64,000 bases of DNA from contig CAIIXF020000005.1 of assembly GCA_903813345.2 (NCBI GenBank), forward strand, positions 14,945,375 to 15,009,374. Reading direction: 5' to 3'. A program made the position numbers and the translations under genes. The number at the start of each line of letters is the position of its first letter. Positions within the stretch are counted from its first letter, which is position 1. Positions 1-61,330 of the stretch are shown in pieces. A model generated the notes under the pieces. That model worked only from the letters and a program-made list of their open reading frames with translations, ran no database searches and had not been told where the DNA came from. Source of the DNA: Owenia fusiformis (Eukaryota; Annelida; Polychaeta; Sabellida; Oweniidae).

Positions 1-2795
1 ATATGTATGTCTTTCTATATTCAGCCATTCTCTCACAAATGTTCCAATATAAATAAATGTCAAAAAATGTCATAAAATTTAATATCTATCTTAAAGAAAT
101 TATGATTTCTCCCATGATTTTTCATTTGTCCAGAATTACTTATTTTCCCATTTTAAAGTGATCATTGTTATCCCACGATTTTTTGAACATATGTTATATA
201 ATTTGTTTTTGTGTGATAATTTGAGTTTTCATATGATCATTTATTTTCCAATGATCATTTCAATTCCTTGGATGATTTATTTTCTAAGGATCATTGAAAT
301 CATTTGTGACAAAATGGCTGATCTATGTACATGATGCAAAGATGACCAACGTCAATGAAACTTAGAAGACCCTTTGTCATGTGACCATGACGTCATTGTC
401 AGTGGTCATCGTTGCACTCGATGTAATCTCTCTACAGCTCTGAAATTAAAGCATTAAAGCAAGTGGGCACAGCACCAATTTTGGACTGAATTGCGAAAAT
501 GAGAATTTTGCACCCACCTGACACAAAATCCTAGGGAGGCCACTGCAAGTTTGAAAAAAAACATATTCTTTTAAAATGGACGCTTTAACAAATTCAAAAC
601 TCAAAGGTATAGTTAACTAAGATCATGCTAAGATATAGCTCTGAGTATAGGGTGGGATAAAAAGAGTAAGATGTCCGCTTCTTAGCTAATATTTCAGAGC
701 TGTATTTTATTTGTATAATCCCCGTCTTTATTTTAGTACCTCCCAAGTGCATCCAAGTATAGACACACAATTAAACACCTATTTATATGTGAATGAGAGT
801 TCTAATCTGGACTCATATTACATGACTACAGTATGTGTCTACTGAAGTAGACACATATTGGTAAATGTGTCTCTATCTTTGATTCATTTGGATTTCTGAT
901 CTTATTTTAGACTTCTGTACTCCTAGCTGTGCCACTGTCACCAAGCCGTCTAATGATCCAAGCTGTCATTTCTGCAGCATCTATTAGAAGTACCTGATCT
1001 TCCCACTCTTTCATTGGTTCCTCATTCATCATAATTCATTATAGGGGTGTTAGGATAGTTTAAATTTTAGGCCATTCTATCACCCCTACTAATTAATGCT
1101 TCGGAGCATGGCTTAAGGTATCATCAAGAATTTTGCTAATACATGTAAACTAAAGGCCTACTCAATTTTCATTGACTGCCAGGTGCTTGCTAAAGAACTG
1201 CAAAAATTATGAGCTATATTTGATATTTTAAGTTTTCCATTCCTCGCTTCGCTATGTCACCTTCCCTCTTCACTGTTATTATTTTACACATCCTTTGCTT
1301 AAATTCCACAAACCCTTTATTTTGATAATAAAGACTACTTCGTCTTTGGATGGGGATTGAGTGTAGTCTTTATGGCTTTAAATTGATATATACTTTATTT
1401 TCAAACGGTCTTAAATCTTAACCCCATACCTTCGTTACCGCTTTTGTTTTTGTGTCTTCTTTATTAACGCTTTGTTTGTCTTTTACTCACCTATGTTCTC
1501 TTCTATTAAGGTAGGACAAGTGGAATGAAGTTTTATTCACTCTACTCTACCCACCTTAATAATATTACATATTGTGTTTTATGATCTTTTTTCTATAATT
1601 TAATCTATAATTTTTCTATATGAAAATATTTACTAAGTAAAACTAATTTATATTAAAATAATGCATTAAAATTTGTTTGTGAGAGAAAGCTGTTAGTTTA
1701 GTCATCATAATTTCCATAGAGATAATGAGAATGTCAGCTGATGCTATGGCAACGTCTACTTTTTATTTTAACATGATATTGTTTTGCTACATTTGATGAT
1801 AATGCTATGTGTACATATTGACCTCAGCAGCTCTTAGGGATATTCTGTTTCAACATCTACTTAAAAATTGCCTAACCAATAATGAAAATATCATCAATTG
1901 CCCTTTAGAAACATCTTTTCTAACACAGGGACAAAAAAAATTCAAAACTTTTTGGACAACCCTTGCATGTAAAGTTTTCATGCTGGAAAAGAAAATATGT
2001 GCACTGTAAGATTAAAATGACTAAAAGAAACAGGACAATGATCTAAAGATATTTTGGAATGTTGGCTTGCATTTTTTAAGTAGATGAGTGGGACAATCAT
2101 GAAATTGAAATCATGAATCTGAAATTAACATTGATATTTCAAGTATTATAGCTGCTCATGGCCTGTACAACAAGGTGCATGGTCTGTACAACAAGATGCA
2201 TGGCCTGCACAATAAGATGCATGGCCTGCACAACAAGATGCATGGCATCTGGACGACAACTAGTGTAGTTAGAAATATTAAACCATTTTTTGTCATCACA
2301 TAAATATGTGCCATGCTATATAGTTTCTCTATATAATATGGTCGACTGATGACAAAGATTGTCATGGTTTATTTCTGTATTTGAGTTTCTCGAATTTGCG
2401 AATCAATTTGAATGTGGAAAGCTATTAATTACAACATAAAGTGTGTGTTTATGAGAAATGCATCTGGAGACAGTTTCTTAAAGATCATTATTAAATGATT
2501 CAGGAACTGTAATGGACAGTTTTTTGAGAAATGGTCCCCAGTTTAACATCGTAGTTGATATAGTTCAGCTAAGCCTATACATCAATTAATATCACAACAT
2601 TCATCTAATATGGAGATCAGGGGGAGGGGGGATTAAGAAGAACTCAGATAAGTGAAGCTAGTCAAAGGTGATTGATGATTCACCATAGCAACCGCATCAG
2701 GAAAACCAGCTGCAGGATAATGCAGTACAGATTAATAAATACACAGAAACATTTCATATTAAGCGATTGATTTATCTTTTTATGTTGAATTTTAG
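1..2795. other. Non-coding stretch before the first recognised exon
   Basis: No reading frame here resembles a known protein. The first recognised light-chain exon (2796) begins in phase 1, so at least one earlier coding exon is required. None is visible here, so this stretch is probably intron of the light-chain gene. It holds short A/T-rich inverted motifs around TGATCATT near 220-300 and a 21-bp tandem repeat near 2160. Confidence 0.5.
2158..2247. repeat. 21-bp tandem repeat, about 4 copies
   Basis: The unit is close to GCATGGCCTGCACAACAAGAT. The GCCTGTAC/GCCTGCAC cores fall at 2161, 2182, 2203 and 2224, an exact 21-bp period with a few substitutions. Confidence 0.85.
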
Positions 2796-2874
2796 GAACC
2801 GACCCCGAAGGAACTATACGTAGTGCATTCGAAATGTTTGATGAAGATGGCAAAAAATACTTAGAAGAAGACTA
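2796..2874 (+). CDS. Light-chain EF-hand exon, alternative a
   Basis: A 79-nt exon between a TTTTAG acceptor and a GTAAGT donor. It enters in phase 1 (GA completes a Gly codon) and leaves with TA of a Tyr codon. It reads TDPEGTIRSAFEMFDEDG then KKYLEED. The calcium loop is DEDGKKYLEEDY: position 12 is not acidic, so it is degenerate as in other regulatory light chains. It has the same length and phases as exons b and c, and they cannot be used together (see findings). Confidence 0.9.
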
Positions 2875-5800
2875 GTAAGTTAACCAGCTTTCCACTGATA
2901 CATAACTATGCGCTGCATGCTTTACTGTTCTTTGCATAATGCATATAATTCTCTCATTAATATTTAGCTCTGGCGCTGGATGACATCACAACTCATAGGG
3001 AGCATTCCATATGTCCAATATCAGTTCCCATCTTGGGAGCACTGTGTATATGGTTTCCAAGTTGGTCCCAAATTGGTATCTATAGCAACCAGAAGTTGCA
3101 ATATTTTAGAATGTTATCTTCACTCCAGGAACCGATCCAGAGGGCACTATATTATCTGCTTTTCAAATGTTTGATGAGGATAATAAGAAATATCTAGAGG
3201 AAGAATAGTAAGTGAAGTGGGTCCTGTCTGCCCGTGTGTAGGGCCATTTTGTTTGTATATGTCTGTAGCTATTTTAAGTCACTCAACACAGAGTCTGCAC
3301 TTTGTTAGAACGCTGTTTAATGGTTTTCTAAAGAAACAGCACAATTTGAGTTCACTTTGAGGCACTTTGAAAACTATTGCCTACTCTCTTATATCCAAAC
3401 ATTGCATGTCTGATGTGATGTACACAGCAACGTGAATATTAAAAAAAATTCGAACTGTTCGAAATATGGTTTCATGTTGATGCCATCGTGTATGACCTCA
3501 TCTCCAAAATCTCCTCATTATACATCAATGATCCCCATTCAACTTTCATTTAAATCAAAACTTGGGTCACTATTGAACAAAAGAAGGGGTATGTTTATGC
3601 GAAATTGTTCTGAATAGCTACAGACACATTTTTCGTCCACATCCTTAGTGACGGCATGGTGGAGCATTTCTGTTTAGTTAATATATAGGATTCAGTTCGT
3701 TCAGTTAATGTCTTCACTAAATTAGGTCATTATTGTGTGTTACTATATATCATATATAGGTTACATAGTTCTAATCATTGGTTCATTGTGTGTCTATATA
3801 GATCTTAACTTAGTCTTAATCCACTTAAATGGATCATTTACGGCTCACTTTGCTCATGCAGAAGAGAAAATAAAAGGTATGTGGGTATCGTTTGTGAATG
3901 TATAAAGTTGGCATGCATATGTAGAATGGGATCTTCACATTTTCTTTGAATATCTTTGGATATGTTTAGAGTGCACATATACATACAGCAGTCTCTCAGT
4001 GTCATTATTTGGTATTGTAGATTTTATTTTTGTTCGTTCAGTTTTTCGAATTAATGTCTATGTTGCATAGCGTAGAATCTTATAGTTAGGAACTCAAAGC
4101 TGCGCTGATTAATTTTTTCAGTTTATAGTAAACTGTTATGTAGTTAGTTGTTCATTTTTATGCAAACATAGATGTAGCTATATATGGTCTCAGAAAGTAG
4201 TGACAATGGAATGTCACCAACTTTGAATGGATCTCATGTGTATTATGTCATAGTTTATTGTCTATTGTTTAGTGATGTCATAATATGTCGCTGTTTGGCT
4301 GCAGGACTCTACGACGTGTCATCATGCACTAATGAATATGCAAAAGTCTCTGGCTGTATTTTAAATGGGCATGTCCTTAAATGGGCATGCCCTTACACGA
4401 AAATAATGTGTATCATTAAAATATCACCACTGGCATTTCACAAAGAAAAAAGCTTGAATCTTACATCTTTGCTTAATTAGACCTTTCATGTAAATTAAAC
4501 AATTACATGTACACACATTACATTGTACATTACATTGTAAAACTGCACTGAAATTCATATGTTAACGAATTCATATTGTCATTCTACTTGGTCAGACCAT
4601 AAGCTTTCTTCTTTCTGCTTATAACTACAGTATTATCATGTATTTTGCATGTCAGTACAATTGCTTATAGATTAATACTGCATAGAACATCATGGCTTGC
4701 TCGTAGTACCATGATTCAGAGATCGTAGAATGGGGAGACGTCACCAGATCGTCATCAGATGCAGAAATTATATTTCAGAAGATATAATATTTGATGTATG
4801 GATAGATGATGACATATCATAGCATAATGAGTATTTCTGCTCAATGTCCATCCAGTGTCAAGTATTTTATGTTAGGTGGTGAGTATGATACAGTCTGTAG
4901 ATAGAGCTGCTTAGGTCTTTTGGGTAGTCGTTCTAAGTCTGTACATGGATGGAGTTATGTGCCAATGTTGGCCAAGTACTTAAAACGACAGTGTCTCTTC
5001 GCTAGTCATGTGACATAGATATTTATGTGATGGTGTTATATTGACCAATAGGAACTGACCCAGAGGGAAGCATTAAAAGCGCATTCGAAATGTTTGATGA
5101 CGACAGAAAGGGTATTCTTGAAGAAGATTAGTAAGTGATGATGTCATAACATGGCGATCCATGGAGCGACTCAATTTTTCTAGTAAATTAGTTTAAATAT
5201 TTAGGGATAGTTTAAATGTGTAGTAAATACATGTATTAAATCAGAAATGAATGCTTAACAATATCTTTTTCAATATTATAAATTGCTTGCTTGCATGCTT
5301 TTTAACTTTAATTTTGCATGCTTTTTTGTGTGACATCACATTTTTATTTGGTGAGTTACTTCCACCAAGATTTAGATTCATTATGAATTTTTAGGCTCGT
5401 AGCCTGGGGTGGGGTGGGGGGGGGGGGTTGTGAATGTGAATCCCCCTGGAATTTTTTAAAAGGTGACCCCCCTTGGATGGCTACGGGCCTGATTTATAAC
5501 TTCTTATGATTATTTACTGTGATCCTAATTGTGTCAGAATATATAAATATGTTAACTTCCCTCTAGTCAAATACATGTAGAACCATTTATACTATTGATG
5601 ATTCTTTCCTGACTTGGTATTTCCTTTATATGCCTTACAAGCTGGGCTATTAAGCCATGAAATGAACACCCTTTGAATACTCCCATAATGCACATTGAAT
5701 ATCCCTAATGCTAATGCCGTGGTCACATTTGCTCCGATTTTCAGCGCTGGCACCTGGCCAATCAGTATTTTGTTCAAAATTGCATTCAGTTTTGAACAAA

Positions 5801-8800
5801 ATACTCATCAGTGTGCACCGATGTTGAAGATCGAAACAAATGTGACCGTGGCATTAGGAGAACATTTGTATTCTTAGTTCACAGATGCTGTGTAAAATCC
5901 TCACATCCCCAAAACCTTGAGCTTTTAGACTCAAAACTTTTTGTGAACCCAGTGATCCTTTTTAAACCTTGAGTGTCGAGATTTTGATTTTCTTTCCCAT
6001 TCTCCTGCTTTTAATCCTTCTTAATTTCCCATACTTTACTTTATTGTTGTGTTGTTTCCAGCATCAAGGACCTTCTAACAAACATGGGAGACAACTTCAC
6101 AAAAGATGAGGTATGTAACCATAGCAACCATTTAAATTGTCATAGCAACCACACATTTCATATCATTAATTGAACATCGTGATTCTTTAAGATTGACAGG
6201 AGATATTGAATACTAATAAATAATAAAATCATTCAATTCTAGATGTTAGTATTGCTCATGCTAATATGTTAGGCTGCTTGTCTCGCATTTTGATAATCTG
6301 TTTGCAAGCTTATATATACTTAGACTTGACTGATGTAGAGATCATGTGAAAGCAAGAGATCATGTTAAAGCAAGAGATCATGTTAAAACAATATACCATG
6401 TTAAAGCATGTTTTCTTCCATCAGTAGCCATTTAGAAAATAATAGCTTTCCATGCTAAGTTGTTGATGCATTTTAAATGTTAAAAGAAAATTTGAGGGCA
6501 TTTATTGAAAGAGTTCAAGAACTAGAAATCATCTTCTGAGGCAAATGTATGTATAATTTTGGAATGCCAAATGTATTGGTATGACTGTATTGGTATGACT
6601 AATGGTTAAGTCAACCATAAACACAAATGTTTAATTAATAGGAAGCCCACACTCCAACATCATTGAAGACTCCTCTTCACTTCCTAAATATTTTTTTCTG
6701 ATGCATCAACCTTTAGCCTGCAAAGTTACATTCAGAGATTAGTCAAAACATTTCTATTTCTAGCTTTGGTAAGCCGGTTACTATAGCAACGTAGATATAG
6801 AATGGCTGTTTTGCTTTTAGTTTCACTTTCAGCAAATCTCTCATGTTAACAAATGAGGATCCTATGGAAATTCTTGTGCAGTACTTTGGGATTTAATGAG
6901 AAGTTTGAATTGAGATAGGAGGGGGTGGGGTTGTAATGAGAAAATAAACTGAGGGTGAAAATGGAGATGAGAGGGTGCAGGCGGGGGGGGGGGGGGGGTG
7001 TAATGAGAAAATAACCTTAGGGTGAAACAAGATATGGGAGAAATTATTTATCAATTCTTTTCAACACTATTTATACATTTGGGGTTCATTTAGAAAAGTT
7101 CAATTTTCTGCTTGTTGGGTTATCCAGAGTATTGCCTGGTTACCATCGTGATGTATCTATAGAAACTGGCTGTCTGAAAGGCTGCAGTGGCTGCTAGTGG
7201 GGATTAGTGTCGCTAGGGGTGACGCATGCTTTGTAGTATTTTTGTTGCTTGTATCTCTAGATTAAGTCTGTCTGGAAGGAGGCCCCCATTCACGACAAGC
7301 AGTTCGATTATGTGCGTTTCACAAAAATGGTGAAAGGATCAGATCAACAGGAATAAATGGTACAGCCGCATGATCTCCCAAGAGACAATAAGGATTTATC
7401 CTATATCCTAAGGATTTATTCCATGCCCAAATCCTATATCCAGCCTGGCTTGCATGGACCATTATAACAAAGCATGAAATAGACTTTTAATGTGAATACT
7501 AAAGAATAGGACATTTTTTATGGGATGTTTTACCAATGTGGTTCACCACTATAGAAGGTTAATTGAAGACACCATAGTTTAGGCAGGGGGACATATTGGT
7601 ACAACATAACCACATTAAAAACAAAATTTCACTTTGAGGAAATTCAGTGCTTTTAAACCTCAATTGTATCATTTTTGAATTTATTCTTCCAGATGTACTT
7701 CCCAAATGTTGAGATTGAGCATGTCAAAATTAAAAAAAAATCAAAAAATGATATTTTCACATTTCTCTGGCAGTGTTTGAATTTTTTTAAATTATTGATC
7801 CTCCAAGAGTCTGACACAACAGTTCAAATTCAAATCCATACTTTTATTAGTGCTTGATGTCGATTTTCTTGTCAAAGCTGAATCTCTCTTTTCATTTCTA
7901 CCATTTTAAAGCTCAATCAAAAATTGTAGAAAATAGCTGCTTGATTATTATTACATAGCTAATATTATTCAAAATACTAACAAATAAGCTCTGATATTTT
8001 TCTTTTTTTCATTCTTGCAACCTTAATGGTTAGTTTATATACCTATGATGTACATATAGATGCAATATTGACTTAAAGGTTATATAGATTTTTTGTCAGT
8101 AAATGTATATCATGTTCAATGCTGATTGTCTAATAAACAATTTTCGATCATTCTAGCCTCAGTAGTCTGTCACTTAAAGTGTGCAATAGTATTTAGTGGA
8201 ATATATCATAAAACAGGGTGACCCGGAAGTTTGACTCATTGTGGTAAAATCTTTGGGTCACCCTGTACTCTCAAAATATCAACATTCACAGTGATGAAAA
8301 TCATAAGTGTTCAATCAAAGAATTAAGAAAAGTAAAGAAAAAAGTTGTTTCACTTCTTCATCTTGAAAGAAATGATTATCACTGTGAGTGTCTGTCATTG
8401 AATTATTAATTTCAATCTGGCTCAGTATTCTTACTTGTACATGTATTGGAGTTACTTGTACATGTTTTTCAGTTAATTGTACATGTTAGTGGTTACTTGT
8501 ACTTGTATAACAGTTACTTGTTCATGTTTTGTAGTTACTTGTACATGTTAGTGGTTACTTGTACTTGTATAACAGATACTTGTACATGTTTTGCAGTTGT
8601 ACATGTTAGTTGTTACGTGTACATGTATAACTGTTACTTGTACATATATTGCATTTACTTGTACACATATTAAAGTTACTTGTAATTGTATTACAGCTAC
8701 TTGTATATGTATTACAGTTACTTGTACATGTCATCCAATAACTTGTACAATGCTATAACTTGTCCATGTATTGACATAAATTGTACATGTTTTGAAAACA

Positions 8801-10710
8801 CTTACTCATGTAGAACAATAATACATGTACATATAAGTAATTTCACTGAGACAGATTGTTACTATCATTGGAAAGGGTCACTTTAGATTGGATGCACCAG
8901 AGAGCTATCTAAGCACCCTGTCCTATCCCTACCCCCACACACCATGGCATGTTGTGACACTTGTGATCCCACGACCATCCCTTTCATGCACAGTAGGGTC
9001 ATCCTAGGGGGAGGGGGGGGGTAAACTGCTGATATATATCTTTATAGGGAAACCTGTATTTGAAGAAAAAAATAGTGCCCTTTGTTGTTAAAGATTGTTT
9101 TCAAAATGGTCCCTGGTATCCTCTAATCGTATACCATAGGGTAAATGGTGAAGAGGATTTAAAGGGCTATATTTGTGTCAATGAGTATTTCATAAATCAG
9201 TTACCTTTACCCAATGCTTGTATCCTAGATCATTTTGTACACCCACCTGGTGTATTGTTGATGAGTATGGGGGGGAATAGAACCTGTATATTGGTGGTAT
9301 CCAGGTTTAACTCACATAGCCATGGTTGTGGGGGGACTAAGACTTGGAGATTACTTCGTGTGAAATGCCTTTACCTTTTCTTACACTACCTGGACCAACC
9401 AATCAATCATTGCAATTTCAAGTAAAACTATTGCCTGTATAATCTCAAAATACACATCAATGTATTCAATTTCATTATGATACCAACTCCTTACGTTGAT
9501 GGGTAAACAACACAAGAGGCTGTGGTACATTCCACCTTGTGTTCGATTTAAGCAAATATTTGTGGGGATTGTGTTTGATTTAAGCGAATATTTGTGGGTT
9601 CCATGCAAGCAAATGATTGGTTCAGGTGTGTAATGACTAACCTACACTGCCTTATTCCATCCTTCTATTTTTCCAAGCTCAAACAAACCTGGAAAGAAGC
9701 CCCAGTGCACGAAGGAAAATTTGACTATGTTCAGTTCACTGCCATGCTGAAGGGCAAGGGAGAGGAAATATAAAAGGTGCCTATGTTGAATTATCTTTCA
9801 AATAGTTCAAAAGATGGCAGTGGGGTATATATCAGTTCAGTGAGTTCAAAGTCAGACATAGTTGCACTCTCTGAATGTCTGATATGCATTGATACAATTT
9901 TCATAGCCAAAAGAAAGAAAGGACACCCTGTAATCTGTGTCTCAAAATAAATCGTAGATCTTAAGTCTCGAATTTTTGTTGTCTTATGATGTAGCATTTG
10001 ACAGTTGAAATTCATGATTTAAAATTCACAATATATTTAAGACACATATATTTCCCCACCATTTAATACTAAACAGTGGTGTATGTATCCACCCTGAGAA
10101 TGCTGTGTTCCTTAATTCATGAACACCATATGTTCCCTCCTCTTTTACCTATACTCTACCCACTGTCATATTTCTCAGTCTACTTGTATAACAACATCTG
10201 CTCTGACTACATCTGTATGAAACATCTGGTATGTATGAACAATATAGAGAATAGCAACACATCACTAGATATACCATAAAAGTATTATTATGTAGATGTT
10301 TAAAATAGAATTGATTATTATAATCATCGATCTTCTTTATCCTGTGATTTCCCCGATCAAAGTGTGTTTTTTTGCATTCACTCCTGACACTTCACTCCTT
10401 TCCTGTTCTACCACTCACGCATTGAAAACACATTTCAACGTAGAAAATATCACTCCGCGTGTTCCCGTCATTATACAAGAAAATTTCATAATTTGAAAGT
10501 AAATATGTAGATTTTAATTCCATCTGTAGTATGTTTGGCACTTATCTATGATGGTACTTTTCTATGTATGGTACTTTTCTATGACACCACAATGTGTTCA
10601 TTATTCATTTTCAGATCAAAGCAGTATGGAAAGAAGCACCAATTCATGACAAAAAATTTGATTATGTAAAGTTTACGGGAATAGTCAAGGGTAAAGACCA
10701 GCAAGATTAA
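2796..10710 (+). CDS. Myosin regulatory light chain gene, 3' part, with alternative exon sets
   Basis: Regulatory light chain of muscle myosin II; it binds the myosin lever arm and, in molluscs, is needed for calcium regulation of contraction. Seven exons are seen: 2796-2874, 3129-3207 and 5052-5130 (alternatives for the third EF-hand), 6062-6110 (shared), then 7261-7356, 9678-9773 and 10615-10710 (alternative last exons). Any one of each set joins in frame to give GTDPEG...AF.MFD, then YIKDLLTNMGDNFTKDE, then WKEAP...FDY..F...KG and a stop. This matches the C-lobe of scallop-type regulatory light chains in order and length. The N-terminal lobe, with the phosphorylation site and first EF-hand, must lie upstream of the window. 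The family assignment is firm; which isoforms are made is inference. Confidence 0.88.
3129..3207 (+). CDS. Light-chain EF-hand exon, alternative b
   Basis: A 79-nt exon, acceptor CTCCAG and donor GTAAGT, with the same phases as alternative a and 254 nt downstream of it. It reads TDPEGTILSAFQMFDEDN then KKYLEEE. It differs from a at four residues (R to L, E to Q, G to N, D to E), mostly by silent or conservative change, so it is an old but constrained duplicate. Confidence 0.9.
5052..5130 (+). CDS. Light-chain EF-hand exon, alternative c
   Basis: A 79-nt exon, acceptor CCAATAG and donor GTAAGT, with the same phases as a and b. It reads TDPEGSIKSAFEMFDDDR then KGILEED. It is the most diverged of the three inside the loop (DDDRKGILEEDY) and has Gly at loop position 6, as in canonical EF-hands. 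The last position is still Tyr, so I do not predict calcium binding. Confidence 0.9.
5131..6061. other. Intron of the light-chain gene
   Basis: No exon-like sequence is seen. It contains a poly-G run near 5410-5427 and the 145-bp inverted-repeat element at 5712-5856. Confidence 0.6.
5712..5856. mobile_element. 145-bp inverted-repeat MITE (GGTCACATTTG family)
   Basis: The ends are TAATGCC..GGTCACATTTG and CAAATGTGACC..GGCATTA. The middle carries a second inverted pair, ATTTTGTTCAAAATTG against TTTTGAACAAAATACT. A relative of the same 145-bp length lies at 54685-54829. There is no coding capacity. Confidence 0.75.
6062..6110 (+). CDS. Light-chain shared exon
   Basis: A 49-nt exon from a TTTCCAG acceptor to a GTATGT donor. 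Its first base completes the Tyr codon (TA + C), and it then reads IKDLLTNMGDNFTKDE, ending in phase 0. This is the helix between EF-hands 3 and 4 in regulatory light chains. Only one version was found, so it is the constant link between the two alternative sets. Confidence 0.88.
6337..6408. repeat. 19-bp tandem repeat, about 4 copies
   Basis: Repeats of AGAGATCATGTTAAAGCA with small changes, in the intron between the shared exon and the first terminal exon. Confidence 0.65.
6912..7028. repeat. Two-copy tandem repeat with long poly-G run
   Basis: Two copies of a block running GAGAT..AGGGGGTG..GTAATGAGAAAATAA..GGGTGAAA. The second carries a run of 16 G at 6983-6998. This is probably slippage of an intronic G-rich repeat. 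Confidence 0.6.
7261..7356 (+). CDS. Light-chain terminal exon, alternative 1
   Basis: After a TATCTCTAG acceptor it opens in phase 0 and reads IKSVWKEAPIHDKQFDYVRF then TKMVKGSDQQE and TAA. This is the fourth EF-hand region and C-terminus of a regulatory light chain (KEAP...FDY..F...KG signature). AATAAA overlaps the stop (7352-7357); another lies at 8132-8137. It has the same coding length (96 nt) as the two later terminal exons. Confidence 0.9.
   Translation: MKSVWKEAPIHDKQFDYVRFTKMVKGSDQQE
8132..8137 (+). promoter_or_regulatory. Candidate poly(A) signal for terminal exon 1
   Basis: AATAAA about 780 nt after the stop of terminal exon 1 and before terminal exon 2. The choice between this and the hexamer overlapping the stop is inference. 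Confidence 0.3.
8213..8267. mobile_element. 55-bp hairpin MITE (ACAGGGTG family)
   Basis: It starts ACAGGGTGACCC and ends GGGTCACCCTGTA, a near-perfect inverted pair around a short loop. Related hairpins occur at 25182, 50877, 54144 and 59113. Confidence 0.75.
8430..8830. repeat. Imperfect 21-bp minisatellite, ACTTGTACATGT core
   Basis: About 17 imperfect copies of GTTACTTGTACATGTATTACA, with drift in the last third of the unit. Frames reading through it give Tyr/Cys/Leu-rich strings that are an artefact of the repeat. Confidence 0.85.
9678..9773 (+). CDS. Light-chain terminal exon, alternative 2
   Basis: After a TTTTTCCAAG acceptor it reads LKQTWKEAPVHEGKFDYVQF then TAMLKGKGEEI and TAA. 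It is the most diverged of the three terminal exons. Its EGKFDYV..F.AM.KG form is closest to what I recall of scallop regulatory light chains (EGGKFDYV). An AATAAA lies 173 nt downstream. Confidence 0.9.
   Translation, partial: LKQTWKEAPVHEGKFDYVQFTAMLKGKGEEI
9946..9951 (+). promoter_or_regulatory. Candidate poly(A) signal for terminal exon 2
   Basis: AATAAA 173 nt after the stop of terminal exon 2, before terminal exon 3. Confidence 0.45.
10615..10710 (+). CDS. Light-chain terminal exon, alternative 3
   Basis: After an ATTTTCAG acceptor it reads IKAVWKEAPIHDKKFDYVKF then TGIVKGKDQQD and TAA. It is closer to terminal exon 1 than to exon 2. An AATAAA follows at 10718-10723, just after the stop, and another at 11005-11010. 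No further terminal exon was found downstream. Confidence 0.9.
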   Translation: MKAVWKEAPIHDKKFDYVKFTGIVKGKDQQD

Positions 10711-17342: not shown

Positions 17343-20300
17343 GTATGACATTCAATATTGAATACACGTATATACAATTGTTCAATACAGGTATATAATG
17401 AACTAAATGCAAGCAGAAATAATACTGATTTACATAATTTAATATTCAAAATTCAGTCAAGAAGTGATATCATATTTGAAATCTACATGTATAATTAAAT
17501 CTTGAAATGTGGTTTCAAAAAGTGTTTATCAACTTTGAAAATTTTCTTTGAAAATGCGGTTTCTAGTTCGGGTAGATTCCCCATAGACCCCATGTTATAG
17601 AATCACAAAAAGTGAAATATCTTTTCTTGTTTTGGACAGATACTATTTATTTTTACTGGACATATTTTAATTTGTGTAACTATCATATACATAAATGTAA
17701 CACGAAAACTGATCCACTTCAACTGATAAATATTGAGGTTTATGGGAACTTTCTACCATATCTGCCATGTTATTTGACCTGAATTAGCCACCTGGTGGTG
17801 ATACTGGTAACTACCTATTGGCATTGTTCCTAAAGGTGAACTGGATAAATTGTAAACCTCCACAAGATTTATATGTCATTATCAAATAAGTTCAAAAGTT
17901 GACAGAGAAAGATTCTCTCAACTTTTATTTTCTTCGAAAATTCTCTCAGTTATTAGTTATTTCTTGCCCTAAAATCCCATTTTATTTTCACAATTGTAAA
18001 ATCACTTTTTTACATGTATTGTAATGACTTCAGTATGAATGAGATGTCCCTTGGGGTTATGTTCATGGAATGTGATAATGGTACTTGAATGATGGGGAAG
18101 GAGTATTAGACATTGTTTCTCTTTAAGTGAGATCATGGTTTGGGATAGTTGGGGTTTGTTTTCCTTATTACAGGTGTAAAGTCGTGGATGTTTTTCTGGC
18201 TGTGCTCTGTCATGATTTTTGGTCCTTTCCCTGCACTTTTCATACATATTTACATAACCCCGAGTCAAAGTTCATACTTTAAAGCTATTTCTGTTTCTGT
18301 GTATTATGTACTTTGACATAGTTAGCATGTCATTTCCTGAATGTTTGCCAAAAGTATGATGTTTTGTTGCATAAAGTCATAAGCAATAAGCATCCTAAAA
18401 CTTGATGCTGTTTCTAGGACAAAAGTTGATCTAGAGTTGAACTCATAAGGCCAGTTGTGAAAAATTATGTGAAATCGAATTGCACAATGGACATTTTTGA
18501 AATTACAGTAAAACATGGATATCTGAACACTAATCTTATTTGAACACCATTTAATTTGAACACATTTTTTCAGTACCATTTGCCAGATACCTCAAAATGC
18601 AGTAAACACTTGAATATCCAAATACATTAACCTGGTCGCAACAGTGTTTGAATTAGACAGGTTTTAGTGTACTTATTAAATTATGGTCATGCTTTTGGAA
18701 AATAAAATGCCATTTTTATTGTAGACAATTATAACAAATTATATACAAAAAGTTGATTAAAACAGATTCAGCAGACCAATTTTCATCTAACCTTGCTAAA
18801 CAAACAAATCATATGCATGTTCAAAAAAGTGTTCTGTGAATACAAAATATTATCTATCTAAAAAACAAATGTTTGAAATATAAAATGGGTTCATATCACT
18901 GCTACCCACCTAATTACACAGATCGGCATTAATATTGCCAATATTACACTGATATTGGTCGTTCGTCAGTGTAAGAAAAGCGAGGGACTAAATACGTGAA
19001 TTGTGTCTTTGTTAACATATAAAACCTAAAACCATCGACACATTCTCAAACTAGACTATCTTCCTTAACTTCGAGCCAAATTATTATCCACAACGTGACT
19101 TATAACATGTATAAGTAGGTGTAAATCGGGAAATAAAAAAATCTTACCGAAACCTAGTCCCGGAGGAAGTTCTGCCATAATACACCGACGATACGTCTGT
19201 GTAATTAGGTGGGTAGCAGTGCATATGGGAGTATATGGGAATTTCCTGACCTAGGACAATCATATATTTTGAGATCAATGACATATTTTTATAATTTTAA
19301 TATCAAAGCTGCATATAAAGTTACATGAATTTTTATAATTTTAATAACAAATTGTGTTTCTATATTGTAACTTGTTTTTGCTTTGTATGACCCTGTCACC
19401 TTTTGACTTTTGGCACAACCGATCCAAGATGTATATGATTATAATCACACCCCTAAATGAACTCATATTGTATAAGTGGCCTTATAGTGACCTTAGTCAC
19501 TATATTCAAGGTAAAAACATGTCCATTTTGGGGAGGGGTTGGGATATTAGACATTGTTTCCTCATGATTTGGGATAGTTTGGGTTTGTTTTCTTTATGAC
19601 TAGTGTACTTTTAGATGTCTTGTCTAGTGTTTTATTTATCTTGCCGTATTCTGTAATAATTTTTGGTACTTTTCCTTTTGTACTTTTGCATATATTGTCA
19701 ACATGATTTGAACCTTACGTTTTTTGTTGTCTATATATTTTTTTTATCTTATATCTATCAGAAATGAGTGATGTTTGAAAAAATAATATAGTTTTGACAT
19801 TTCTTTCTTTTTCTTAAATAGGGCAGATTGTTTACTTCTTCAAGACGTCAAAGTTATGGGAACGTTTTCAAGACACACATTCTAGGGCGTCCAACAGTTA
19901 GAGTGATTGGTAGTGAAAATGTCCGTAAGATTCTAATGGGAGAACATTCCCTGGTGACTTGCCAGTGGCCTGCAAGTGCAAAGATGATCCTCGGGGAAAA
20001 TGCTCTGGCGATGTTGTCCACTGGTAGCATCCATACATCGCGTCGTAAAGCAGTCTTGAAGGCATTTAATTACGAGGCACTTTCAAGCTATGTTAGACCT
20101 ACGCAACAGATTATTCACGAGTGCATCATGAAATGGCCGGAACGTGACAGAATTCTGGGATACCATGAATGCCAGGGTATGACTTTTGAGGTTGCTGGGA
20201 AGGTCCTTCTCGGGTTCAATTTTGACAAACAGGAAACAACTGACCTAACAAAGACGTTTAAGAGGCTCCAAAATAACCTTTTCTCACTCCCGGTGAACTA

Positions 20301-22631
20301 TCCAGGATCTGGACTTAACAAGGTACAAATTTTGATATTCAAAACAACTAGAAACACTGGCAAAATACCAGATCACGTCATATAACACCACAAAAACAAA
20401 CCTCTAACCTATTGAACCCTTTACAGAGCCAAAAGCAAGGTGTTAAAGATATGTTGAAGTAAGAAGTGAGTCAGTATTACTGCATCATTATGGACTGAAT
20501 AAGTCCAAATACATATTACCAAAACTATGGTTATCCTGTAATATTCAAAGTTCCATGAAAAATGAAAGGCTCTTAAATCTAATTTTACAGGTTTTCATGA
20601 CAATTTCACATTTTTTATATTTCGCATAAATAGGCCAGTGATTTTTTTTATATCACTTTTATATCCCTATAAAAATTTCCCTTATCATAACCCATTATTT
20701 CGGTCAATTTCAAGAAAATCACTCTGCTATGATTAAAAATGATTTTTCACATTGGGCTCAACTATAAAAATGAAATTTCCAAATTTATCATTTTAAAATT
20801 CTATGTGGTGAAAAGTTGCATATTGGGAAGTTCTTTCATGATTATGTGATATCACAAAAGGAATTATATACAGCCAATAAAATGACATTTTAATATACAG
20901 GTTGAGCAAAAAAAGGTAACCCAAACAAATGTTAATAACTCAGTCATCCAGCATGGGTTTAAAGTCATATTTGGCATAATTGAACATTGTTCTGAGATAA
21001 TTATTTAATGAACATTTTAAAATTATATTCAGATCATCCTCTATAAATTTTTAGTCTTCCCATTGGAAAATAAAAATTTGTATAATTTTCTTCATCTTGT
21101 TATGAACATACTATTTATTTACCATGTTATGAATGAGAAGTACATGTATGCGTTCAACATTCCAACTATTACATAATGTTACCAATAATCATCGACAACC
21201 TTTTAAGTACATTCCCATTTAGAAAAATGCCATGGGGTAAAAGTATTATTTTGTGGGTCTAAATTAAAGTGTATTTTTGAAAAGTGCAGTAGTAGTAAAG
21301 TAGTGATGGATCTTAAACCTGTTTCATAAATTCTTGGGAAGAATTTTCTTTTGCTATATTTTGGACATGAATTAAGTTCTGAGAAAGAATTTCGATTGAA
21401 AATATTGGCCCTCTCATGCCTTCGTGGTACAGAGAAATGCATTATATTGAAGAAAACTATCTTTTGTTGCCGAGGTTTAAGCTCCAGAATATGGCCTAGG
21501 TTCGAGTAACCTGAGTGCACTAAATGACAAAAATTCACTACTAACAACAGTAGTCACATTTTTAATATTGACACTAGTGCCATCTTTAAATTAAATATTT
21601 ATGATATTAATATCTATCTATCTGATGTGCTGTTGTGCTTGGCTTGCAGGGGCTGGAAGCGAGAAAGATCCTCATGGAAGCAATAGAGAAGATTATAACA
21701 AAGCGCAAGGAAGACATTGCAAATGGCAGTCACACAGAACATGTGGATGCTTTATCTTTACTAATCCAGAAAAACGTGGATGAAGATGAGGATGAGGTCA
21801 CTATGGACCAATTGAAAGATTCAGCGCTGGAACTACTTTTTGCTGGGCATGAAACTACAGCCAGTGCAGCAAGTTCTATATTACTACACTTATTTAAACA
21901 CCCAAAGGTTATTGACAGAGTAGCGATTGAAATGAACAAGTACAAAATATTGAACAATGACACTACAGAACTTACATATGAAACAATCAACAAAATGACA
22001 TATCTCAACAATGTTGTCAAGGAGATTCTGAGATTATCACCACCTATTGGCGGGGGATTTAGACGAGCGGTCAAAACATTTGAACTTAATGTGAGTTAAA
22101 AAACAAGATCAAAGTCTTTAAATATGCAATAAGTATATTTTTTATAGCTAACTGTCAGTTATTTTATGAACCATGCGATGAAATTGTATATTTTCATTTT
22201 ACCTGATTAATCTTATCTTCATATTGTTGTTTGTTGTATCCGTCAATTATGTGTTTGTATTCTTTTAGGGGTACCAAGTGCCCAAGGACTGGACCATCAT
22301 GTACTCGATCAGGGACACCCAAGACACATCACAAGTATTCCAAAATGTGGATGAATTTGATCCTGGACGTTGGAATGACCTTGACCTCACCACAAACCAA
22401 TCAGATCGTTTCAGCTATATCCCATTTGGTGGAGGTACCAGGGCATGTATCGGCAAAGAATTCGCTAAACTTCTCCTGAAAGTGTTTATTCTAGAGCTGG
22501 TAGGGAATTGTACGTGGAAAATACCTAACCCAAACCCTCGTATGAAATCATTCCCAGTTCCATACCCGGTTGATAAACTCCCAATAGAATTCTCAAAGAA
22601 GGAACACCGTCTGAGGTCATTCACTTTTTAA
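17157..22631 (+). CDS. CYP26: Cytochrome P450 family 26 (retinoic acid hydroxylase type)
   Basis: Endoplasmic-reticulum haem monooxygenase. Characterised CYP26 enzymes hydroxylate and clear all-trans retinoic acid; activity of this one is inferred. Coding exons are 17157-17342, 19822-20322, 21650-22090 and 22269-22631, all joined in phase 0, giving 496 aa, the normal CYP26 size. The N-terminal hydrophobic anchor (residues about 8-24) is followed by LPLPPGSMGIPFLGET, the CYP26-type proline hinge. Exon 2 carries FKTHILGRPTVRVIG..NVR.ILMGEH, a strong CYP26 signature. Helix I has AGHETT (294-299), helix K has EILR (354-357), and the haem loop is FGGGTRACIG with Cys436. No frameshift or stop was found. 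No retinoic-acid response element was recognised upstream by eye. Confidence 0.93.
18504..18672. mobile_element. MITE, CAGTAAAAC family, second copy
   Basis: It starts ACAGTAAAACATG and ends ACAGGTTTTAGTGT, with the same GAACAC-rich interior as the copy at 14245. Confidence 0.6.
18897..19221. mobile_element. 325-bp MITE with 26-bp perfect inverted ends and CATAT target duplication
   Basis: The first 26 bp (from CACTGCTACCCACCTAATTA) are the exact reverse complement of the last 26 bp (19196-19221). CATAT directly flanks both sides (18892-18896 and 19222-19226). No frame of note lies inside; the perfect ends suggest a recent insertion. Confidence 0.85.
19822..20322 (+). CDS. CYP26: CYP26 coding exon 2
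   Basis: 167 codons from a TTAAATAG acceptor to a GTACAA donor. It holds the helix B-C and substrate-recognition region, including WPASAKMILGENAL and RRKAVLKAFNYEAL. Confidence 0.92.
20323..21649. other. CYP26 intron 2
   Basis: About 1.3 kb, AT-rich; nothing recognised in it. Confidence 0.7.
21650..22090 (+). CDS. CYP26: CYP26 coding exon 3 (helix I and helix K)
   Basis: 147 codons from a GGCTTGCAG acceptor to a GTGAGT donor. It contains ELLFAGHETT (oxygen-activation motif) and VVKEILRLSPPIGGGFRRA. Confidence 0.93.
22269..22631 (+). CDS. CYP26: CYP26 coding exon 4 (haem loop, C-terminus)
   Basis: 120 codons and TAA after a CTTTTAG acceptor. It holds DEFDPGRW, FGGGTRACIGKEFAKLLL and a C-terminus ending RSFTF. 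Confidence 0.93.
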   Translation, partial: GYQVPKDWTIMYSIRDTQDTSQVFQNVDEFDPGRWNDLDLTTNQSDRFSYIPFGGGTRACIGKEFAKLLLKVFILELVGNCTWKIPNPNPRMKSFPVPYPVDKLPIEFSKKEHRLRSFTF

Positions 22632-29782: not shown

Positions 29783-32700
29783 CTGAAAAAAACACTGTAA
29801 ATATAAAACATGTTATAAAATCAATATTCCCAGTAGAATCTGTTTTTTAAATTTAATGCTTATAAATAATCTTGAATACATTTTATTTGTTTTACAACAG
29901 CTCAATTATAGCCAAAGACGATTTAGTCCAATGCATAAGAATATGGATAATGCATGATGAAATTGTGTTTCGATTGGTCAAAATTGACAATGCATGCTCA
30001 TAGGGGGATACTTACTTAAGCATTATGTTAATGACTGGAGTGATTTGGTTCAGGGCGAACATGGTGACCTTTGACATGAAGTGACTCCAGTGAGGCTTGA
30101 TGTGTAGACAGGTACGAGATGCCGCTACAGCAGCACTTGCTATCAGGGACGGAGAATACTCTTTGTAAACTTGATCTGAAAGTTTGAGAGAAAATGAATA
30201 TAATTTCCAGTTTCAATTTTGAATTTGACCAACTGTGATTGTATCATTGATCTGAAGTGAGTTTTTTAAAATAAAGAAAACTAGTTTTTTTTTTATTTCA
30301 CCTGGTGACGAGAAGTGACTACACAACAGATGTTGAAATTAGGTTTGAATGGCTTTTAAAAACAACACAAAAACCACAACTTAACTAACAACACAAAATT
30401 AGGTCCTTTCACCAACATACAGGGTGTCTGGAAAGTAAAGATGCAAATGCTCTCATTCCAAGAGATTTACCTGTTATGAGATGAAATTACTCCAGAATAT
30501 AAATGACATAATATTCAATTTAAGTTAACATGTTCATTAACAGTTAACATTTTTATTATCAAGCGTTAACAATTTAAGTTCATGCATTCGTTAACAGTTG
30601 ACAATTTCAAATGAATAAATTGATGAACAGTTAACAATTTAGGTTAACACATTTGGCAATAGTCAGCTTTTTATTGTCAACCGTTAACAATTTAAATTAA
30701 CATGTTCATTAACAGTTAACATTTTTATTGTCAAGCGTTAACAATTTAAGTTAATGCATTCGTTAACAGTTGACAATTTCAAATGAATAAATTGATGAAC
30801 AGTTAACAATTTAGGTTAACGCATTCGACAATAGTCAGCATTTTTATTGTCAACCGTTAACAATTTAAGTTAACATGTTCATTAACAGTTAACATTTTTA
30901 TTGTCAAGCGTTAACAATTTAAGTTAATGCATTCGTTAACAGTTGACAATTTCTAATGAATAAATTGATGAACAGTTAACAATTTAGGTTAACGCATTCG
31001 ACAATAGTCAGCATTTTTATTGTCAACCGTTAACAATTTAAGTTAATGTGTTCATTAACAGTTAACATTTTTATTGTCAAGCGTTAACAATTTAAGTTAA
31101 TGCATTCGTTAACAGTTGACAATTTCTAATGAATAAATTGATGAACAGTTAACAATTTAGGTTAACGCATTCGACAATAGTCAGCATTTTTATTGTCAAC
31201 CGTTAACAATTTAAGTTAACGTGTTCATTAACAGTTAACATTTTTATTGTCAAGGGTTAACAATTTAAGTTAATGCATTGGTTAACAGTTGACAATTTCA
31301 AATGAATAAATTGATGAACAGTTAACAATTTCAAATGAATAAATTGATGAACAGTTAACAATTTCAAATGAATAAATTGATGAACAGTTAACAATTTCAA
31401 ATGAATAAATTGATGAACAGTTAACAATTTCAAATGAATAAATTGATGAACAGTTAACAATTTCAAATGAATAAATTGATGAACAGTTAACAATTTCAAA
31501 TAAATAAATTGATGAACAGTTAACAATTTCAAATGAATAAATTGATGAACAGTTAACAATTTCAAATAAATAAATTGATGAACAGTTAACAATTTCAAAT
31601 AAATAAATTGATGAACAGTTAACAATTTCAAATGAATAAATTGATGAACAGTTAACAATTTCAAATGAATAAATTGATGAACAGTTAACAATTTCAAATG
31701 AATAAATTGATGAACAGTTAACAATTTCAAATAAATAAATTGATGAACAGTTAACAATTTCAAATGAATAAATTGATGAACAGTTAACAATTTCAAATAA
31801 ATAAATTGATGAACAGTTAACAATTTCAAATAAATAAATTGATGAACAGTTAACAATTTCAAATGAATAAATTGATGAACAGTTAACAATTTCAAATGAA
31901 TAAATTGATGAACAGTTAACAATTTCAAATGAATAAATTGATGAACAGTTAACAATTTCAAATGAATAAATTGATGAACAGTTAACAATTTCAAATGAAT
32001 AAATTGATGAACAGTTAACAATTTCAAGTTAACACATTTGTCAACAGTTAACATTTTTATTGTTAAAAGTTTCTTGTAGAAACTTTGATCGAATTCTAGT
32101 AATGGTTGTATTAAGGAGAGGGGAAAAGCTGAAGATTGTATTTTAATTTGATTTAACCAATCTGTAATCATATTGGTATTCAGTTTATTTGATTTGCTGA
32201 TCTTTAACTCCAATGAATTTCGGAGCTTCAGTTTACGTAACATTGTCGAAGAGTTCATATACTATGATTAAGTAAGCATTCCAATTGTAAACTCTCATAT
32301 CGTAATTAAGCAAAGTTAATAATCAAATAATCAATTATTTGAAGCTTGGAATGTGGAATTGTGGACAGTAGGAATCAGAGATTATTTTATGAATTTATGA
32401 TATTTTGTTTAACTTATAAGAAATTTTAAAGTCTTTGTCTAATTTATATTGTGACATCATTGATATTTGTTCTCATGAAAAGTGCATCTTAGAATATATT
32501 TCTCATCATTGTATTAACTTAGCGAGAGCTAGAACATTATATTTTCTGGCTGCGACCTTTAGCAACGAGGCGACACTGAGCAAGAGTCCATCGTGGGGGC
32601 ACAGCCAGCCGATTTCATTTCAGAATGTTGAACTTCTCACAAATATTCAGATGGTCATTAAGGTAGAAATCTAAAGAGGCGTCATCAGATGAATATGGGG

Positions 32701-34131
32701 CATTGTAATAAAAGGTTAAATGTCAAGACACTCCATTGTAAGATTTGTTTTCATTGCTTTGTGAATTGTTGTATTGGAGATGCAATATTGGCTTTCCTAC
32801 TAATCCAGGGTCCGTTTTTCTAAGCACTAGTATAATGTTTCTTTGATTAGTAGGTTAGTGACATAAAATAGTTCTGATATGTAACAATGACATCATTATA
32901 TAAAAGAAAAAAAAATACTATGGCAGCAATAATACAAACAACAAACAAAACAACATATTGATAGAAAAGCTGATAAAACACTGCTTCAAATAGTTGTATT
33001 TTAGCAATTTTCACATTTTAGCAATGTTCTGGAGCTGCTCCGCATACCTCTCACCGCAGTAAGCATAACAACCGTATCTTGAACACGTTTAGACTATATG
33101 TGATGAAAATTGGTAGATATTATTGTAATAATATTCCTCTACAATATGTAAGTATTTGTATCTTTACTTTCCCGACTCCCTGTGTAAAATTAACATGCTT
33201 ACTTACCTTGTAAACTAATTTCTAGGAAATATGTCGCATATTTCATGATATACAGCTTAGTTTTTGCACTATGTACAGGCGATTTACATGTCTCCGGGTT
33301 GGACTGGTCATCTGCTACACTCAGTGTTATGTAATAGTCCACAAAATGGGCAGGGGTGGGTAGCCCAATGTTCCATTTAAAGCAGTCTAATAGAGTCAGT
33401 TCCATTTGCTGATATTCCCAGGCTGTGTAACCTTTTGGATTCACATACACATTTAGATCGGTTGATTTTGGAATGTTGATTTCTTGTTCTTCATATTTAG
33501 CTGGAAGTTAGGAGAACAAGACACAGAGTATACATTAATATCATATTTTGAAGACCAAAATGGCAACCACGTAATCTACCCAGCAAGCCCAAAAACTAAT
33601 CAGATCTTGGCACTAATCTGTTCTTCCAACTTTTACAAAAGAAATAATTCGACAGTGTTGATACTCAAATGGCAACAGAACAACAGAAAAATGCATGATC
33701 CACTAACGTAATGATAACTTCTCAATCATTGTGGATTGGTGGAATCATTTAAAGTTTCTTGTGTGTGGTGATTCCTGCATAATATACTATCCTACTGTAC
33801 TCCCAGTATTTTTATGTGCTATTAATTTTCGCCAAATTGTCAAGAACTTACCTGCGACTAGTATACATCCGATGGCCACAAGATACAGTTGAGGTTCCTC
33901 AATGTCAAACTTATCCATGAAATAATCTAATAAATATACAGATAGATGGCGTGCAGTGGTACAGAGTTTGAATTTATCGCAGATGACTGCTAACCAATCT
34001 ACGACGTAACGCCTGAGATGCATTTGTGGAGACCTGGAGAAATATAGAGGCATCTTGGTCTCTTTCAGTTTCAGTGTTTCGTGGATGTCGTTTGCCATTG
34101 GGTTCAACCACCATTCTTTTTCCACCTCCAT
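29608..34131 (-). CDS. CCNJ: Cyclin J
   Basis: Cyclin-box protein related to animal cyclin J; a nuclear CDK-partner role is known for the family, and function here is inferred. Coding exons in order are 34131-33852, 33500-33207, 30175-30016 and 29782-29608, with phases 1, 1 and 2 and GTAAGT-type donors, giving 302 aa. The N-terminus MEVEKEWWLNPMANDIHETL aligns with the start of vertebrate cyclin J. The first cyclin fold runs through RRYVVDWLAVICDKF, ARHLSVYLLDYFMDKFDI and LVAIGCILVAAKYEE; the second through CFKWNIGLPTPAHFVDYY, KLYIMKYATYFLEISLQ and SPSLIASAAVAASRT. ATG 34131 is the first after an in-frame TAA, and a good acceptor at about 34185 implies a non-coding first exon. The tail is shorter than in vertebrates. 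Confidence 0.92.
30016..30175 (-). CDS. CCNJ: Cyclin J coding exon 3
   Basis: 160 nt after a CAAACTTTCAG acceptor. It reads DQVYKEYSPSLIASAAVAAS then RTCLHIKPHWSHFMSKVTMF, the second cyclin fold. Donor GTAAGT. Confidence 0.9.
30500..31285. repeat. 173-bp tandem repeat, about 4.4 copies
   Basis: The landmark TTCATTAACAGTTAACATTT recurs at 30533, 30705, 30878, 31051 and 31224 (periods 172, 173, 173, 173). Each unit is rich in GTTAAC and contains one copy of the 33-bp sequence amplified next door. Confidence 0.9.
31290..32030. repeat. 33-bp minisatellite, 22 copies, with higher-order pattern
   Basis: Unit: AATTTCAAATGAATAAATTG then ATGAACAGTTAAC. Because 33 is a multiple of 3, the - strand stays open and reads an 11-residue repeat (HQFIHLKLLTV). 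It lies inside a cyclin J intron, so I call it an array, not a gene. One G/A site splits units into two types whose order repeats (see findings). Confidence 0.93.
33207..33500 (-). CDS. CCNJ: Cyclin J coding exon 2
   Basis: 294 nt after a CTTCCAG acceptor. It opens by completing Ala, then KYEEQEINIPKSTDLN, and carries the linker and start of the second cyclin fold (LLDCFKWNIGLPTPAHFV). Donor GTAAGT. Confidence 0.92.
33852..34131 (-). CDS. CCNJ: Cyclin J coding exon 1
   Basis: 93 codons plus one base, ending CTAGTCGCAG before GTAAGT. It holds the N-terminus and first half of the cyclin box. The exon probably extends in 5' UTR to 34184, where a TTTTTTCCACTGCAG acceptor ends. Confidence 0.92.
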
Positions 34132-34184
34132 TTTCTTGAATATTTGTTGTCTCAGGTGAACCAATTGTTATGCAGTCAACAAAT

Positions 34185-41162: not shown

Positions 41163-41745
41163 AAATTGCACGCCCAGGTATTCAGCAATGGGGCAACGAA
41201 ACGCAAAGTTTAAGTTCGGTGCTGGATTCTAGTTGCACAGGGGCAGTCCTGTGTATCAGTGCAAAAATGTTCTTCATCATGTGAAATGGTTTGTTTGGAG
41301 ATATTATGGACGGCACTAGTTTACTCAATTCTTGTAGAACCAAAAGTACCTGTCGCAGACAAGTATGTACAACGAATCCAATAATTAGAGTTTCCAAAAG
41401 TAAACAACAACATTTTCAACATTTTCACGTTTTCCTGAATGCAAATAAAGCAGGTATATCCAGAACTTTGGCAATATCAAAACAATCAAATAAAAAATGA
41501 ATTCCATCAAGACCATGAAACTTTGTCAAAAAGACCATGAATATATGTGTAAAAAAATTAAAAAATGAATTCCATAATACAATAAACTTGTGTGTCATAA
41601 AATAAAAAATCAAATGAATAGATTTAACCCTAACCTTAACCCTTATTCTAAGACCCTAGATATGGGTGTCAAAATAAAAATGGATTTGTATTTCAAAAAA
41701 ATAAAAAAATAAATTTAAACCTAACCTGAACCCTAAGAAATATAT
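41163..41745. other. Spacer between two LINE fragments
   Basis: AT-rich. A phrase of the type CCTAACCCTAA-CCCTTA near 41625-41735 occurs twice in slightly different form; otherwise nothing is seen. Confidence 0.4.
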
Positions 41746-53524: not shown

Positions 53525-53660
53525 TAATACCAAAAGCAGTCGACAACACCGCACTAACGAAAGCAGACGACACCGCACTCATAAAAGCAGACGACACCAT
53601 CGCACTAACAAAAGCAGACAGCACCACACTAACAAAAGCAGACGATACTACTGCTCACAC
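53525..53660 (+). repeat. 24/27-bp minisatellite upstream of transporter A
   Basis: Four units like ACGACACCGCACTCATAAAA GCAG, of 24, 24, 27 and 24 bp. All lengths are multiples of 3, so one frame reads (T)ALTKADD repeats without stop up to 53718. It overlaps the transporter start in another frame. Confidence 0.85.
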
Positions 53661-58534: not shown

Positions 58535-58665
58535 AAAAGCAGTCGACAACACCGCACTAACAAAAGCAGACGACACCATCGCACTCATAAAAGCAGATGA
58601 CACCATTGCACTAACAAAAGGAGACGACAGCACCGCACTAACAAAAGCAGACGATACTACTGCTC
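58535..58665 (+). repeat. 24/27-bp minisatellite upstream of transporter B
   Basis: Four units of 24, 27, 27 and 27 bp, homologous to those at 53525-53660. Again all are multiples of 3, and one frame stays open, ending at a TAG at 58698. Confidence 0.85.
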
Positions 58666-61245: not shown

Positions 61246-61330
61246 GTGAATTTTAACCAGTGCCATAAATTCGGGCATAAATTGTGCGAAATTCAATTAT
61301 ATTTGTTATACCTGAGTGATTTACTTGCAG

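Follow-up and report, generated by a model that had tools for sequence, protein, structure and literature searches.

Can one muscle gene supply many versions of the myosin regulatory light chain (RLC) by choosing among duplicated exons? The question is raised by a 64,000-nt stretch of the genome of the annelid Owenia fusiformis (assembly GCA_903813345.2, contig CAIIXF020000005.1, C5:14945375-15009374 of the 498 Mb genome; hereafter the window), in which an initial annotation had described three 79-nt exons, one constant exon and three 96-nt terminal exons as a 3 x 3 array that could encode nine versions of the C-terminal lobe (C-lobe) of an RLC. Protein-query searches of the whole genome and reading of the 30 kb upstream of the window place the start of this gene ~10 kb before the window, which holds only its 3' part. 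All seven exons lie exactly where they had been placed, and the proposal that they stand in register holds, with shared phases within each set and open frames. The array itself was described incompletely: it is 3 x 2 x 3 x 3, with 54 combinations in place of nine, and the N-terminal phosphorylation exon is alternative too. Past the start exon the gene has six coding positions, and four of them thus offer alternatives (3 N-terminal, 2 EF-hand-2, 3 EF-hand-3 and 3 terminal exons); this four-position array of selected alternative exons in a muscle-type RLC gene is real. The exon order is 1–(N1/N2/N3)–EF1–(E2a/E2b)–(E3a/E3b/E3c)–C–(T1/T2/T3), with coordinates as follows, negative numbers being positions 5' of the window start:

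-9893..-9877 (+): exon 1, probable; ACAAA ATG GCA GAA GAA (MAEE)
-4478..-4356 (+): N1, alternative N-terminal exon, 123 nt
-4297..-4205 (+): N2, alternative N-terminal exon, 93 nt
-4049..-3981 (+): N3, alternative N-terminal exon, 69 nt
-2551..-2476 (+): EF1, constant EF-hand-1 exon, 76 nt
-506..-405 (+): E2a, alternative EF-hand-2 exon, 102 nt
-232..-131 (+): E2b, alternative EF-hand-2 exon, 102 nt
1..2795 (+): part of the E2b–E3a intron, from the window start
2796..2874 (+): E3a, alternative EF-hand-3 exon, 79 nt; first base G, last two TA
3129..3207 (+): E3b, alternative EF-hand-3 exon, 79 nt
5052..5130 (+): E3c, alternative EF-hand-3 exon, 79 nt
6062..6110 (+): C, constant exon (IKDLLTNMGDNFTKDE), 49 nt; holds the MGD motif
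7261..7356 (+): T1, alternative terminal exon with stop, 96 nt; AATAAA at 7352 overlaps the stop, next ATTAAA at 7614
9678..9773 (+): T2, alternative terminal exon with stop, 96 nt; AATAAA at 9946
10615..10710 (+): T3, alternative terminal exon with stop, 96 nt; AATAAA at 10718, 11005 and 11045

The internal exons in the window are bordered by AG/GT and the terminal ones have an AG acceptor; phases are identical within each of the N, E2, E3 and T sets, whose members are homologous and adjacent between the same constant neighbours. The MAEE exon is the probable start exon: between -16000 and -4479 five pieces of at most 72 nt open with ATG and run in phase into a good donor, and of these only MAEE at -9888..-9877 resembles the start of an RLC; its context (ACAAAATGG) has a pyrimidine-rich acceptor before it and GTAAGT after it. 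Joining one exon per set gave an open frame in 54/54 combinations, with 156, 164 or 174 residues without MAEE; in the version with N2, alternative exons supply 367 of the 504 coding bases (73%). The E3c–C intron holds a hairpin at 5711-5857, with 33-nt inverted arms and a second 22-nt inverted repeat inside, that resembles a small mobile element, and the T1–T2 interval holds ~15 copies of a degenerate 21-nt repeat (TTACTTGTACATGTATTGCAG) at 8431-8795.

Duplicate exons could be relics that are no longer spliced, or the remains of several genes, and the substitution pattern bears on the first of these. Synonymous change exceeds non-synonymous change in 10/10 duplicate pairs (one E2, three E3, three T and three N, the N pairs compared over their last 19 codons), with pS from 0.63 to saturation, pN of 0.02-0.31 and one-sided Fisher p values from 0.0044 to 5e-12, synonymous counts above the site number (T1-T2, T1-T3, N2-N3) being capped for the tests. 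The 50-nt flanks of the duplicates, in the pairs compared (N1-N3 left out), are 22-48% identical and hence unrelated. Chance resemblance is excluded because the duplicates share most residues (19-23/27 in E3, 16-24/31 in T) despite synonymous sites near or at saturation, and synonymous change far above protein change beside unrelated flanks argues, therefore, that the duplicates are not relics, as the initial annotation had held. Of the properties of a mutually exclusive exon cluster, the anatomy and the protein-level selection are thus both present. The opposite case, in which most duplicates are unspliced and a single RLC is made, can point to the weak acceptors of E3a and E3c and to exon use that is predicted from sequence alone; it is nevertheless very unlikely, given that frame, phase and sites have been kept across strong synonymous divergence in every pair and that relics of such age would be expected to show stops or shifts, which none of the 54 combinations does. 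Still more improbable, to the point of being nearly negligible, is an origin as the remains of several tandem RLC genes: duplicated units do sit in one region, but like exons stand together (N,N,N - EF1 - E2,E2 - E3,E3,E3 - C - T,T,T), EF1 and C are single, and tblastn with 13 queries found no second unit in the 30 kb upstream and the window.

The identification as a myosin RLC is upheld, the closest solved relatives being RLCs. Against solved structures the C-lobe matched squid (3.8e-30), scallop (from 9.1e-27) and vertebrate-type smooth chains (5.9e-24), while the full N2 version matched scallop first (2.9e-58), followed by squid (3.7e-56), human MYL12B (4.2e-56) and, far behind, calmodulins (~1e-25); for a second full-length version the top three matches were all scallop chains. 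The terminal exons split clearly from the smooth/non-muscle type (100/100 branch). By these comparisons the array gene is an RLC of molluscan muscle type, a designation that rests on the C-lobe and the terminal exons because the full-length N2 search ties squid with human MYL12B, a tie that is probably due to the RATSNVFAMF kind of N2 exon. The genome has at least two other RLC genes, both on contig C1 and of smooth/non-muscle type, for which tblastn with 13 queries per locus (11 exon pieces of the array gene and two mollusc C-lobes) found one copy per exon. One of them (C1:36898000-36905999) has RYTSNVFA instead of RATSNVFA and a diverged C-lobe. The match regions at C9:12.73 Mb and C5:9.73 Mb proved calmodulin-like on reading, and the gene count leaves out weaker EF-hand matches on C8, C1:47.8-47.9 Mb, C1:50.2 Mb, C10, C6, C12, C3, C7, C2, C246, C9:34.5 Mb and C5:15.37 Mb. 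A bilaterian striated-type MRLC (ST-MRLC) is described as having split from the smooth MRLC in the bilaterian stem (PMC5167519); the array gene likely belongs to this ST-MRLC family and the C1 genes to the smooth/non-muscle type; exon arrays go unmentioned in the accessible part of that source.

What the exon choice might change can be read in part from what it leaves constant. The sole canonical cation loop (DANRDGFIDVSD) lies in the constant EF1 exon, with a Pfam EF-hand_1 match at residues 32-58, and the MGD motif, as NMGDNF, lies in constant exon C, where it aligns with the scallop RLC; its G is residue 117 in scallop chain numbering, reportedly the position addressed by single-glycine work on scallop. 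MGD is placed at the contact of RLC, essential light chain and heavy chain, and reportedly contributes to the stability of the calcium site in the essential light chain (PMC2674065). All three versions of EF-hand 3 carry Y at position 12 of the loop, and EF-hand 4 is degenerate, without a 12-residue acidic loop; exon choice at these two hands therefore probably does not switch between calcium sites. The two hands are unlikely to tune calcium binding, and with the EF1 loop and MGD in constant exons the calcium-response role proposed at the outset becomes doubtful. Likelier targets of exon choice are phosphorylation and the interfaces with heavy chain and essential light chain, which the E2, E3 and T versions would alter. 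Each N exon carries a predicted phosphorylation serine in an S-N-V-F-A context, as RAPSNVFA (N1), RATSNVFA (N2) or KAGSNVFA (N3); the T-S pair of smooth-type RLCs (RATS) occurs in N2 only, N1 having RAPS and a charged extension and N3 KAGS.

How could one exon per set be selected? In E3 the reading frame itself penalises error. Joining any two E3 exons creates a TAG at the junction (3/3 pairs) because every E3 exon starts with G and ends with TA, and skipping E3 shifts the frame and brings a stop after five shifted codons. The N1–N2 gap of 58 nt may be too short to splice, and each T exon has AATAAA or ATTAAA words 3' of it. No means of preventing joint inclusion was found for E2, and for the N set only the N1–N2 spacing. 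Splice sites were scored with a generic weight matrix and ranked among all AG or GT sites in ~94 kb. To call all of the sites good, as was done initially, was too strong: the donors of N1, N2, E3b and E3c fall within the top 4.5% to 8.7% of GT sites, and the acceptors of E3a and E3c are weak, unlike that of E3b, which is strong. A default use of E3b with regulated use of E3a and E3c would fit these acceptor strengths.

The flanks suggest a candidate regulator. In the 1,370 nt of intron that lie no more than 200 nt downstream of the eight internal alternative exons, TGCATG, the RBFOX-type word, occurs 6 times against 0.64 expected, ranking 3/4096 hexamers behind the donor word GTAAGT and GCGCTG, and it is absent within 200 nt upstream of all eleven alternative exons. 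RBFOX bound to UGCAUG downstream of an exon usually promotes inclusion. One copy lies 196 nt past the E3b donor; other occurrences in the window include:

2157..2246 (+): 21-nt tandem repeat, 4.3 copies, with four TGCATG, ~550 nt upstream of E3a
2914..2919 (+): TGCATG, candidate RBFOX site, 40 nt past the E3a donor
5292..5320 (+): two TGCATG, candidate RBFOX sites, 162 and 185 nt past the E3c donor

The repeat at 2157-2246 could concentrate RBFOX proteins, a regulatory role that is speculative. Across the whole gene TGCATG has 16 copies, in part from the 21-nt repeat, where 200 shuffles average 7.1 and reach 16 at most. Among other words, ACTAAY shows no excess across the gene, the MBNL-type word modestly exceeds both flanking comparisons, the PTB-type word exceeds one and falls below the other, and TGTTTG is ~twofold above both; these gene-wide counts are not relied on because a control word, TACATG, is also 1.5-1.8-fold above both comparisons.

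Comparison with molluscan chains offers a view of which exons might belong together. The scallop RLC chains 3pn7_B and 2os8_B, which we take to be both from Placopecten, one from catch and one from striated muscle, are identical at 132/132 positions counted from the one with which the EF1 exon of the array gene begins. N-terminal to the N|EF1 boundary the match falls to 12/21, although the five residues next to the boundary are all shared; one N-terminus has RATSNVFA and the other AASGVLT. This is the pattern expected from alternative N exons of a single gene, and it suggests such a choice in scallop. Only the N-terminal choice is visible there; the array gene adds alternatives for EF-hand 2, EF-hand 3 and the C-terminus. 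A second RLC isoform with a phosphorylation site, of unknown role, has been reported from catch muscle (PMC12040844). The squid RLC is closer to E2b (24/35) than to E2a (17/35) and to T1/T3 (13 and 14 of 26) than to T2 (10/26), while the scallop RLCs are closer to E2a (21/35) than to E2b (17/35) and to T2 (18-21 of 30-31) than to T1/T3 (12-15 of 30-31). In a terminal-exon tree of 31 columns, with groups named after these identities had been seen, T2 groups with the scallops (96/96) and one-clade tests reject both trios, with p-AU 0.027 for the worm exons and 0.012 for the molluscs. The rejections stay without the human row (0.012, 0.015), where the T2–scallop grouping loses support; without squid the worm trio is not rejected (p-AU 0.526). 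The E2 tree, with E2b beside squid (66/90), goes in the same direction without significance, the one-clade tests giving p-AU 0.395 for E2a and E2b together and 0.379 for the molluscs together. Against an ancient split, squid and scallop share 23/35 residues in E2, close to the 24 shared by squid and E2b and above the 21 shared by scallop and E2a, and E3 is without such a pattern, squid there being closest to the human chain (18/27). The terminal-exon split may predate the divergence of the annelid lineage from molluscs, which we offer as a lead. It is possible, although we would not call it probable, that the muscle RLC gene of the spiralian ancestor was already combinatorial, that the squid mantle RLC (E2b-, T1/T3-like) and the scallop RLCs (E2a-, T2-like) descend from different exon choices, and that a light-chain exon code runs parallel to the heavy-chain code, with a matched set per muscle type.

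Taken together, we consider it highly probable that this is a muscle RLC gene with four alternative-exon sets, of which one exon per set enters each transcript, in a few coordinated combinations per muscle type. One member of each set would be chosen per transcript. E3 would be policed by its frame, double inclusion and skipping both ending in a stop; exclusivity in N would perhaps be helped by the short N1–N2 spacing; the T exons would act as alternative last exons, each with its own poly(A) site; and E2, having no frame guard, would need a regulator, the best candidate being UGCAUG (RBFOX-type) downstream of the alternative exons. Each muscle type would then use few coordinated combinations, in which the N exon would set light-chain phosphorylation, N2 alone retaining the T-S pair, and E2, E3 and T would alter the surfaces that hold the heavy chain and those turned toward the essential light chain, with the EF1 cation site and MGD unchanged.

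Several observations weigh against this proposal. The E3a and E3c acceptors rank only in the top 24% and 29% of AG sites; the N and E2 exons are symmetric, and in the cases tested the frame survives when N or E2 is included twice or E2 is skipped; the exon junctions are inferred from the sequence and one-exon-per-set use is a prediction; and the tie of the N2 version with human MYL12B blurs the assignment to the molluscan type. TGCATG was chosen for testing after the sequence had been read, and with 500-nt flanks its rank drops to 6/4096 (6 downstream against 1.23 expected), upstream copies being 1 at 300 nt and 2 at 500 nt (1.92 expected). Exclusive choice in E3 through competing RNA structures, with docking and selector sites, is a rival mechanism, and one perfect 14-nt complement does join the intron before E3a to the E3c acceptor region; the best common docking site, however, was no better than shuffles (matched by 55% of 40 and 26% of 100), a result that also counts against the proposal as a whole, and the isolated complement was set aside as a likely chance match, which leaves this mechanism quite unlikely. 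A somewhat better, still low, probability attaches to free combination, with independent choice at the four positions yielding up to 54 isoforms and diversity for its own sake, in the manner of Dscam. All combinations are open and the phases are interchangeable, as such a scheme would have it, but the pairing of E2b with T1/T3 likeness in squid mantle RLC and of E2a with T2 likeness in scallop RLC is a weak hint of linked choice, and a structural subunit would have no obvious gain from random diversity. We retain coordinated choice of one exon per set as the preferred reading.

Muscle diversity based on exon clusters is documented for the myosin heavy chain; light chains, by custom, are regarded as a single fixed subunit or a small number of them. 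The nearest published case, in the accessible parts of the sources consulted, is that of the myosin heavy chain (Mhc) exon clusters: Mhc of Capitella teleta has seven mutually exclusive exon clusters, scallop catch and striated Mhc isoforms differ by cluster combination (both PMC3912159), and Lethocerus Mhc has six such clusters (PMC5660136). Like the RLC array, these clusters use duplicate exons to encode functional parts of the same motor in more than one form; they differ in gene and subunit, the array gene encoding a light chain of about 160-180 residues, 73% of it alternative in the N2 version, and the text of PMC3912159 nowhere contains the term 'light chain'. By this analogy the RLC gene would be the light-chain counterpart of the mutually exclusive Mhc exon clusters. 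Muscle-type isoforms of insect Mhc, TnI, TnT and Tm also arise from single genes through alternative exons (PMC13322953), and the accessible part of that source describes no alternative splicing of an RLC. Among the matches listed from the open-access literature, with most subscription journals outside it, no title or abstract opening announced an RLC gene with exons that are alternative or mutually exclusive; isoforms of the array gene may already figure in automatic genome annotations. With 73% of the coding length alternative, phosphorylation, neck properties and the myosin off-state could be set per muscle by splicing. The array also offers an exon-level explanation for older protein data, namely the two scallop RLCs and the divergent squid RLC, and a clean system, with the E3 stop-codon guard built in, for the study of coordinated exclusive choices at four positions.

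The remainder of the window holds other genes and repeats. Downstream of the RLC gene, 19822-22631 (+) carries cytochrome P450 exons (Pfam p450 on the first long exon, later exons by eye), and 33199-34167 (-) a cyclin-like gene (Pfam Cyclin_N on 33787-34167). Between them, at 31256-32057, a 33-nt unit recurs in 24 tandem copies with 96% matching; it has two open frames on the minus strand and encodes an 11-residue repeat on paper, but is probably a non-coding minisatellite. A weak reverse-transcriptase match at 41737-42114 (+) (RVT_1, 28.6 bits, just below the cut-off) is probably a retroelement remnant. Further 3', a tandem pair of MFS transporter genes (Pfam MFS_1) lies at 55899-57047 and 61222-62379 (+), with long exons 93% identical over 381 residues, and repeats coding ALTKADDT-like runs lie near both genes, at 53531-53645 and 58535-58654.

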